Source: Flavobacteriales bacterium (GTDB taxonomy: Bacteria > Bacteroidota > Bacteroidia > Flavobacteriales > ECT2AJA-044). From it: a DNA stretch of 49,072 nt. Below, one piece after another: positions 28,420-29,732 of the stretch. The position numbers were made by a program, and so were the translations under genes. The DNA lies in NCBI GenBank assembly GCA_021296215.1, contig JAGWBA010000009.1, positions 1 through 49,072 of the forward strand, read 5' to 3'. How positions within the stretch are numbered: the first letter of the stretch is position 1; every line of letters begins with the position of its first letter. The notes beneath the pieces were generated by a model, which had not been told where the DNA came from, made no database searches, and was given only the letters and a program-made list of their open reading frames with translations.

Positions 28420-28445
28420 CGAGTCCCGTCAATTGGCGGGACTCG
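28420..28445 (+). terminator. Terminator of the act-cta operon
   Basis: A 9-bp perfect stem, cgagtcccg at 28420-28428 and cgggactcg at 28437-28445, with an 8-base loop, followed by TTGTATTTT. It lies 27 bp after the ctaD stop. Confidence 0.75.
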
Positions 28446-28489: not shown

Positions 28490-28521
28490 TTTGTGGGGTT
28501 AGATAGGTGAACCTACATTTG
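28490..28521 (+). promoter_or_regulatory. Strong promoter in the gene-free gap before ruvB
   Basis: TTTG at 28490-28493, exactly 20 bp, then TACATTTG at 28514-28521. Both elements fit the Bacteroidota consensus. It lies after the cta terminator, so it opens a new transcript starting near 28528. Confidence 0.65.
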
Positions 28522-28527
28522 GTTCAA

Positions 28528-28657
28528 AGGTTAGGGGATTGTGTTTTTCTTTGTCTCCATCAGTTCTTTCCACTAACCGCCAGTCTAAGGATTAGTTTGG
28601 ATTAATAGATCATTCGATTGGTTGCTTCCCCTCCCACCCGGAGGGGAAGTTTTTTTT
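28528..28657 (+). ncRNA. Candidate small RNA or ruvB leader, about 125-130 nt
   Basis: The stretch has no convincing reading frame but has a promoter at its 5' end and a strong terminator at its 3' end, the arrangement expected of an independent small RNA. Internally, ggttag (28529-28534) can pair with ctaacc (28573-28578), and the 3' end is the 10-bp terminator stem. It could instead be an attenuated leader of ruvB, whose start is 47 bp further on. I cannot assign it to a known RNA family; 6S RNA was considered, but its large central bubble could not be shown. Confidence 0.4.
28625..28657 (+). terminator. Strong intrinsic terminator upstream of ruvB
   Basis: A perfect 10-bp stem, cttcccctcc at 28625-28634 and ggaggggaag at 28640-28649, with a 5-base loop and then eight T residues (28650-28657). 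It is the strongest terminator in the window. Confidence 0.85.
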
Positions 28658-28664
28658 ATGCCCT

Positions 28665-28685
28665 GCGCTTCGCACCGCGAGGCGC
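28665..28685 (+). other. GC-rich hairpin in the ruvB 5' region
   Basis: gcgcttcgc at 28665-28673 pairs with gcgaggcgc at 28677-28685 over nine positions (one G-T) around a 3-base loop. No T-run follows, so it is not a terminator. It ends 18 bp before the ruvB ATG. Confidence 0.6.
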
Positions 28686-28703
28686 GAATTTGCCTTACCT
28701 TAG

Positions 28704-29732
28704 ATGCCTATGAACGAGCATTTGGACCCGACCGGAGAGGAGTGGGGCCCCGAGGAACAGGAACTCGATCGGGCACTGAGGCCAAAGGGATTTGGTGAAT
28801 TCGCTGGTCAACGACAAGTAGTGGACAATTTAGAGGTATTCGTCGAGGCGTCGAACCGCCGGGGCGATGCTCTAGACCATGTGCTATTGCACGGACCTCC
28901 CGGTCTCGGAAAAACGACCTTGGCCCATATCATCGCAAACGAACTCGGAGTCAATATCAAAGTTGCCAGCGGACCCGTATTGGATAAGCCGGGCGACCTC
29001 GCCGGACTCCTAACCAACCTCGAAAACCGCGATGTGCTCTTCATTGATGAAGTACACCGCATGTCCTCCGTTATTGAAGAATACCTGTATTCGGCCATGG
29101 AGGATTTTAAGATCGATATCATGATCGACAGTGGGCCCAATGCCCGTACGGTACAAATCAACCTGAACCCATTCACCCTAATCGGTGCCACCACGCGAAG
29201 CGGCTTATTAACCTCTCCGCTACGGGCTCGTTTTGGGATAAACAGTCGCCTACAATACTACGATGTGGAATTATTGACCCACATCGTTCACCGTTCGGCC
29301 GATATCCTAGATGTGCCGATCACAGATGAGGCGGCTATTGAGATCGCCGTACGAAGCCGAGGAACGCCCCGTATAGCGAATGCCCTGCTTCGCCGAGTGC
29401 GCGACTTTGCGGAGGTCAAAGGAAATGGCTCCATCGACATGGCCATAGCCAAACACGGACTCGGAGCCTTACACGTCGATCAACACGGACTCGACGAAAT
29501 GGACAATCGAATTCTGTCGACGGTCATCGAGAAATTTAAAGGTGGACCGGTCGGACTCAGCACCATAGCAACGGCAGTGGGTGAAAATGCGGGCACCCTC
29601 GAAGAAGTGTACGAACCCTTCCTCATTCAGCAAGGATACCTCATGCGGACCCCCCGTGGACGACAGGTAACCGAGCTCGCGTACAAACACCTCGGCGTTA
29701 AACCCTCAGGAGATCAAAACTCGCTGTTCTGA
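28704..29732 (+). CDS. ruvB: Holliday junction branch migration helicase RuvB
   Basis: A 342-residue AAA+ motor that drives branch migration together with RuvA. Motifs: Walker A GPPGLGKT (64-71), Walker B FIDEVHR (113-119), sensor/RuvB signature [18 protein letters not shown] (161-178) with the arginine finger region, and the C-terminal winged helix ([18 protein letters not shown]). Full length for the family. The start could be 28704 or the ATG two codons later at 28710; both are possible. No ruvA or ruvC lies nearby. The stop TGA overlaps the queG start as TGATG. Confidence 0.97.

Follow-up and report, generated by a model that had tools for sequence, protein, structure and literature searches.

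The window analysed here, the whole stretch of 49,072 nt, corresponds to contig C9 of a draft genome of 2.53 Mb in 135 contigs (G000), which by promoter signature, gene content and relatives is presumably of Flavobacteriales type within the Bacteroidota, and carries, all on the plus strand, the end of ctaD with the terminator of the cta operon, a promoter, a putative small RNA (RNA1) with an intrinsic terminator of its own, and ruvB. These features are collected in Table 1 along with their conservation in G001, the only other genome of the genus in the comparison set, in which RNA1 lies at the same position between ctaD and ruvB. A GC-rich hairpin was also seen between the RNA1 terminator and the -7-like box of ruvB (window 28664-28686), and by eye G001 has a hairpin of partly different sequence at the matching position. 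ruvB itself is nearly leaderless in appearance (window 28696-28710), its -7-like box lying 6 nt before the ATG, and relatives show this layout too.

Table 1. Features of the ctaD-ruvB interval, in window coordinates, and their counterparts in G001.
Feature	Position	Strand	Remarks
ctaD end	28392	+	
cta operon terminator (upstream insulation)	28420..28445	+	11 pairs, 8 GC; 17/26 identical in G001, hairpin there too
-33 box TTTG	28490..28493	+	from sequence; identical in G001
-7 box TACATTTG	28514..28521	+	from sequence; 8/8 identical in G001
Predicted small RNA RNA1 (ends approximate)	28527..28657	+	111/133 identical to G001; fold z -3.2
Hairpin 1, GGUUAG...CUAACC stem with inner helix	28529..28578	+	pairing kept through two A-U/G-C changes
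Module A, open loop UUUUCUUUGUCUCCAUCAGUU in hairpin 1	28545..28565	+	21/21 identical in G001
Hairpin 2, GCCAGUC...GAUUGGU	28579..28622	+	40/44 identical in G001
Module B, AGUUUGG(A/G)UUAAUAGAUCA in hairpin 2	28594..28612	+	antisense to several mRNA leaders and to a loop in another small RNA
RNA1 intrinsic terminator with T run	28624..28657	+	hairpin 28624-28650, 11 pairs, 7 GC, then T's
ruvB -7-like box TACCTTAG	28696..28703	+	8/8 identical in G001; similar layout in relatives, by eye
ruvB	28710..29732	+	PF05496, PF17864, PF05491; start MNE(H/N)L common to relatives

The promoter proposed in the earlier note, TTTG followed after 20 nt by TACATTTG, was found at 28490-28521 and belongs to the TTTG/TAnnTTTG type, which is described in PMC7366714 as the housekeeping promoter type of the phylum. 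The motif alone is no proof, since shuffled windows average 0.63 matches to the pattern TTTGN{17,21}TANNTTTG, which has a single match in the window. The two boxes are identical between G000 and G001 at all 12 positions while the spacer is identical at only 9 of 20, and this is the pattern expected of a real promoter. As to the terminator, the earlier note is justified in ranking it as the strongest of the window provided that the T run is taken into account; the ranking does not stand by stem alone, because two further terminator-type matches also have 11 pairs. One is that of the cta operon, which is richer in GC (8 vs 7) and is followed by a weaker run of T's; the other lies on the minus strand at 26428-26400 and has 4 GC pairs. 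The 125-130 nt free of reading frames that had been supposed between these signals agree with a predicted transcript of ~131 nt in which no ORF is conserved: the mechanical ORFs that overlap 28490-28703 number six (21-58 aa), those of the equivalent region of G001 four (21-40 aa), and none of them is conserved along its length. In a TTG-started pair (31 and 27 aa) the first six residues are common to both genomes because the conserved terminator hairpin encodes them. RNA1, as a predicted transcript, would combine its own promoter, an intrinsic terminator and the lack of a conserved ORF, by which trans-encoded sRNAs are recognized.

When set against 200 dinucleotide shuffles, the segment 28527-28659 folded better than 199 (z -3.2), and the predicted structure of RNA1 consists of three separate stem-loops, hairpin 1, hairpin 2 and the terminator. 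Helix 1 contains two pairs that are compensatory between G000 and G001, a weak signal given that it comes from two sequences and that 134 of 500 shuffles were as good. The loop of hairpin 1, module A, is pyrimidine-rich and is predicted to be largely open (mean unpaired probability 0.82 and 0.91 in the two genomes); module B in hairpin 2 is predicted to be half unpaired (0.50 and 0.56), and at one position G000 carries an A where G001 has a G.

Four-fold synonymous sites are saturated between the two genomes: ruvB retains identity at 49 of 155 of them and the aligned part of ctaD at 66 of 211. Compared with this level of ~32%, 111 of the 133 columns of RNA1 are identical, and such a high identity over a saturated synonymous background argues for a selected small RNA. 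By this comparison, promoter, structure and sequence of RNA1 are under strong selection in the genus. The independent small RNA proposed by the earlier note is borne out by the conservation of promoter, structure and terminator and by the purifying selection seen relative to the saturated synonymous sites; RNA1 is, on the sequence evidence, very probably a selected and independent small RNA.

Compared with relatives, as the earlier note had suggested, RNA1 proved to be kept in G001 and was not found in the other genomes of the order that were searched. A DNA search of 60 genomes, the own one included, returned RNA1 in the own genome and in G001 only. A covariance model built from the two RNA1 sequences was run over 395 genomes of the order, again with the own genome included, and matched 9 of them at E ≤ 0.05, the two genus members with 160 and 161 bits and the next best with 28.8 bits; all seven other matches were read and look like terminators or chance, leaving RNA1 in 2 of the 395 genomes. 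An exact-pattern scan of a collection of 84,980 species genomes, from which records very near the window were possibly left out, gave 5 matches in open frames that we read as chance. Rfam gave no match at gathering scores over the whole window, and a loose search of the RNA1 region gave matches at chance level only. RNA1 would accordingly be a small RNA known to date from this genus alone.

In order to look for partners, a pattern complementary to module B (ATCTATTAANCCAAACT), set from hairpin 2 before any partner had been seen, was searched with up to 2 mismatches on both strands of both whole genomes. Besides the 2 self matches, G000 and G001 together contained 9 sites, all of them located in sense in non-coding RNAs or mRNA leaders: two in a second small RNA (RNA2), two in a third (RNA3), two in front of proS, and one each before three genes that we label secA (G001), secB (G000) and secC (G001). 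The number of near-matches is not clearly raised over the reversed pattern (with self matches included, 5 vs 9 in G000 and 6 vs 0 in G001, together 11 vs 9); it is their location that stands out. When 300 composition-matched shuffled patterns were run over 800 kb of G001, 17 of 96 matches were non-coding and 4 of 96 were in sense and at most 35 nt ahead of a start, as compared to 9/9 non-coding or leader sites and 5/9 sense leaders for the real set in both whole genomes, or 6/6 and 4/6 if counted by independent locus.

The module-B sites in mRNAs span 3-28 nt before the start codons of two T9SS-sorted proteins, of proS and of one more gene. The two proS sites, one in each genome, end 3-4 nt before the start codon; the best model for the partial protein is TIGR00408, with a score below the model cut-off. 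In G000 the secA and secB products carry a T9SS type A sorting domain (TIGR04183). The secA site was retrieved in G001, and the leader of the G000 ortholog has the same TATTAACCCAAACTAAA; the secB site was retrieved in G000. The gene in the corresponding position of G001 encodes a different protein body, and its leader ranked first for module B in a set of 299 genes, the first 400 kb sample of that genome. The secC gene, of G001, encodes a product with a signal-like N-terminus; its site lies 7-24 nt ahead of the start and overlaps the last two codons and the stop of the preceding gene. For proS, secA and secB the sites are present in G000 as well as in G001, but these are two genomes only, with an A-C mismatch in G000, and the conservation of the sites may reflect shared ancestry. 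The mismatch affects the pairing with secA, RNA2 and RNA3, all three of which keep CCC, so that three of the G000 pairings are weakened. Leaders in general showed no clear module-B enrichment in the G001 sample. Genes of T9SS type reached score 22 in 3 of 12 cases, as compared to 8 of 287 others, in the first 400 kb sample of G001, and in 1 of 10 as compared to 14 of 289 in a second, independent sample, both samples having been rescored with a definition of T9SS-like that was tightened after the first. A wider T9SS regulon was rejected, the enrichment of the first sample being gone in the second, and for this reason we claim only the named module-B sites.

RNA2 (L208:1431-1562, on contig C44 of G000) follows a gene that we take to be pheT and occurs at the same place in G001 (L207, about 2831.7 kb on C1). 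It is a conserved intergenic RNA with a promoter-like box, two hairpins and a terminator, identical at 126 of 133 positions between the genomes, and Rfam gives no credible match for it. Its module-B site is contained in a 24-nt loop that is predicted to be unpaired with a probability of 0.9. RNA1 and RNA2 are perfectly complementary over 19 nt in G001, and in G000 they form 18 of the 19 pairs, with one G-U and one A-C mismatch; shuffled RNA2 reached this pairing score in 0 and 1 of 400 trials. The pair thus shows the long, conserved complementarity of a sponge pair. The energies of the whole-RNA duplexes did not beat shuffles, 94 and 155 of 500 being at least as good, and were uninformative, probably owing to the dominance of the terminators. 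RNA3 (about 1470-1690 in L212 and L211, on C48 of G000 and at about 1294.3 kb on C1 of G001) lies beside a presumed gcvP and has its own terminator; its core is identical at 163 of 164 positions despite the saturated synonymous sites. Rfam gave nothing credible for it, and ARAGORN called neither a tRNA nor a tmRNA; RNA3 has the look of a so far undescribed RNA that is conserved at a housekeeping level. Its pairing with RNA1 was equalled by 1 of 400 shuffles in G001 and by 98 of 400 in G000, where it is no better than chance.

Taken together, RNA1 is probably a small RNA of ~131 nt that is transcribed on its own, consists of two pairing modules and a terminator, and acts in trans by base pairing; it seems likely that this pairing proceeds through module B. 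According to this model, hairpin 2 would open and pair with UAUUAACCCAAACU-type sites that a few mRNAs carry in their leaders, 3-28 nt upstream of the start codon, and this pairing would block translation or alter the stability of the mRNA. RNA2, whose 24-nt loop carries the same UAUUAACCCAAACU-type site, would titrate RNA1; we regard its role as a decoy or partner as possible, short of an even chance.

The roles could also be reversed, RNA1 itself being the decoy, with a hairpin 2 that mimics the mRNA targets of RNA2 and RNA3, and these two being the regulators with UAUUAACCCAAACU as their seed. The motif of RNA2 is placed in an open loop, as is typical of a seed, and RNA2 is more conserved than RNA1. 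The leaders that we found, however, have the motif in sense orientation, just as RNA2 and RNA3 do, and hence are complementary to RNA1 and not to RNA2; the leader search covered both strands, albeit with one pattern only. We consider this reversal of roles unlikely.

Somewhat further down in probability is the explanation that the leader motif serves another role, as the site of an RNA-binding protein or as a translation enhancer, and that its complement in RNA1 is coincidental, or else that RNA1 works via a protein or via module A. It would fit with the A-C mismatch in G000 and with the fact that module A, for which few sites stand out, is the most conserved part of RNA1. Against it, we estimate that chance alone would not be expected to give 2.8 Mb a perfect complement of 19 nt; moreover, the module-B sites show a strong bias for non-coding, sense and leader positions.

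Module A was scanned in the same two genomes with several patterns, each set against its reverse and with self matches included. Three scans exceeded the reversed pattern little or not at all (12 vs 16 in G000 and 27 vs 20 in G001; 30 vs 30 and 43 vs 46; 7 vs 5 and 21 vs 17), and the only raised one gave 10 vs 2 in G000 and 18 vs 10 in G001, or 26 vs 12 without self matches, with most of its sites in coding frames. Among the loci compared between the genomes (29 of G000 and 51 of G001, a part of all matches), two sites coincided at orthologous positions, one at the gldG-DUF4340 junction and one in the promoter that comF has in common with a coiled-coil gene. At the former, where the end of gldG (TIGR03521) precedes a DUF4340 gene (PF14238), the site is identical to the perfect module-A complement at 18 of 21 positions, with one G-U in addition, and would pair with module A at -23.8 kcal/mol in both genomes. 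It is part of a 41-nt block that is identical in the two genomes (L120:1486-1526; minus strand of L129) and that directly precedes the DUF4340 start at position 1528 of L120. In 28 relatives without RNA1, whose gldG loci were fetched out of 50 genomes with a match among the 60, the best match at this locus was at most 14 of 21. The site falls in coding sequence, so that protein constraint may explain its conservation, and we keep the gldG-DUF4340 junction as a candidate, if rather doubtful, target of module A.

The second coincidence concerns a divergent promoter (around position 1500 of L060 and L059, minus strand) between a gene that we take to be comF and a gene for a coiled-coil membrane protein beginning with MSDxSNRNNRIIII.... 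Promoter, leader and coding start are here almost identical in G000 and G001, even at synonymous sites, and the region holds CTTTGTCGCCATCAGT, which resembles module A on the same strand. This orientation is that of the coiled-coil gene; for comF the site lies 42-57 nt upstream of the assumed start and would be a target only if comF transcription began further up. The site was set aside.

If all elements were joined, RNA1 would be the centre of a genus-specific circuit in which its antisense hairpin silences a few leaders, including those of T9SS-exported proteins, RNA2 and perhaps RNA3 act as decoys, and module A, through its 21-nt loop and the gldG-DUF4340 junction, ties in the gldG gliding operon. 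As a whole this scheme is speculative, and we would rather bet against it in its complete form.

The other possibility left by the earlier note, a regulated ruvB leader, is not supported. In this case polymerase would start at 28527 and the RNA1 terminator would act as an attenuator deciding on ruvB expression, in line with the common strand and with a terminator directly before the gene. The ruvB start was placed at 28710 and not at 28704, because MNE(H/N)L is common to relatives and G001 has no ATG matching 28704. It is preceded at 6 nt by the conserved TACCTTAG box, located after the RNA1 terminator, and the same layout occurs in relatives without RNA1; a -33 box was not identified for ruvB. 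Since ruvB has a -7-like box of its own, RNA1 is probably not its leader. Furthermore, among the best 30 ruvB loci from the 60 genomes two are those of the genus members, and the core motif is absent from the 260 nt preceding the gene in all of the other 28, of which L019 has a promoter-type match there; several of these 28 have a ctaD-like end upstream of ruvB. An unsystematic look at the predicted folds showed no obvious antiterminator. An attenuator of ruvB is, on these grounds, very improbable.

That RNA1 might be the 6S RNA of the genus, whose gene seemed missing as the Rfam model 6S-Flavo (RF01685) finds nothing in either genus member even at E ≤ 1, can be dismissed almost with certainty, since the gap between zapA and rny of both genomes holds an RNA with the hallmarks of 6S and RNA1 forms three separate hairpins and not one long closing stem. 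At this threshold the model matched 14 of 20 genomes, all below the family cut-off, with both genus members among the 6 without a match. Of the 10 matches of relatives that were fetched, 10/10 are followed by an RNase Y-like gene and at least 7 are preceded by a ZapA-like one (presumably rny and zapA, as judged from their sequences). The RNA in the zapA-rny gap of G000 and G001 is identical at 190 of 203 columns and, having the same hallmarks as the 6S RNA of the relatives, was taken as the 6S candidate instead of RNA1. It is located at about 1255-1465 of L085 and in L086 (minus strand) and is missed by the 6S-Flavo model. RNA1 as 6S (RF01685, RF00013) gave no covariance match, either with Rfam on the window and region or with RF01685 on the genomes, and it is not upstream of rny; the two have in common that they are flavobacterial small RNAs of similar length, and they differ in locus, structure and sequence.

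RNA1 is a predicted trans-acting small RNA in a phylum in which few small RNAs have known targets. It brings a short list of testable partners from two genomes with saturated synonymous sites, together with an apparent partner RNA, and this partner network, which we infer from those two genomes, lifts it above plain annotation; the partner set would make it possible to decide whether circuits of an sRNA and a decoy act on exported proteins in the phylum. A full-text literature search returned no title or opening of an abstract describing RNA1. A formal parallel for RNA1 and RNA2 is offered by sRNA sponges, in which two small RNAs have a long mutual complementarity, and the two RNAs share this property, with RNA2 as the presumed titrating partner. 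Rfp18 of Flavobacterium psychrophilum is described in PMC9723704 as a genus-conserved sRNA with a stem-loop predicted to pair with several metalloprotease mRNAs. RNA1, which was not found in the other genomes of the order that were sampled, is likened to it by description, as a flavobacterial genus-conserved sRNA that would address several predicted mRNA partners through one stem-loop. In Bacteroides thetaiotaomicron, GibS, in 2020 called the phylum's first trans-encoded sRNA for which mRNA targets had been identified, is reported in PMC7366714 as a genus-conserved intergenic sRNA of 145 nt with its own promoter and terminator that pairs with translation initiation regions. As far as that account goes, the seed of GibS is a single-stranded 5′ end, whereas the modules of RNA1 are inside two hairpins, and the promoter motif of GibS is non-canonical, whereas that of RNA1 is of the TTTG/TAnnTTTG type. 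The two are set side by side by description and not by sequence, RNA1 having no credible Rfam match; in this sense RNA1 resembles GibS in its intergenic location, similar length, own promoter, terminator and conservation in the genus, and, if it acts as proposed, also in pairing with initiation regions.
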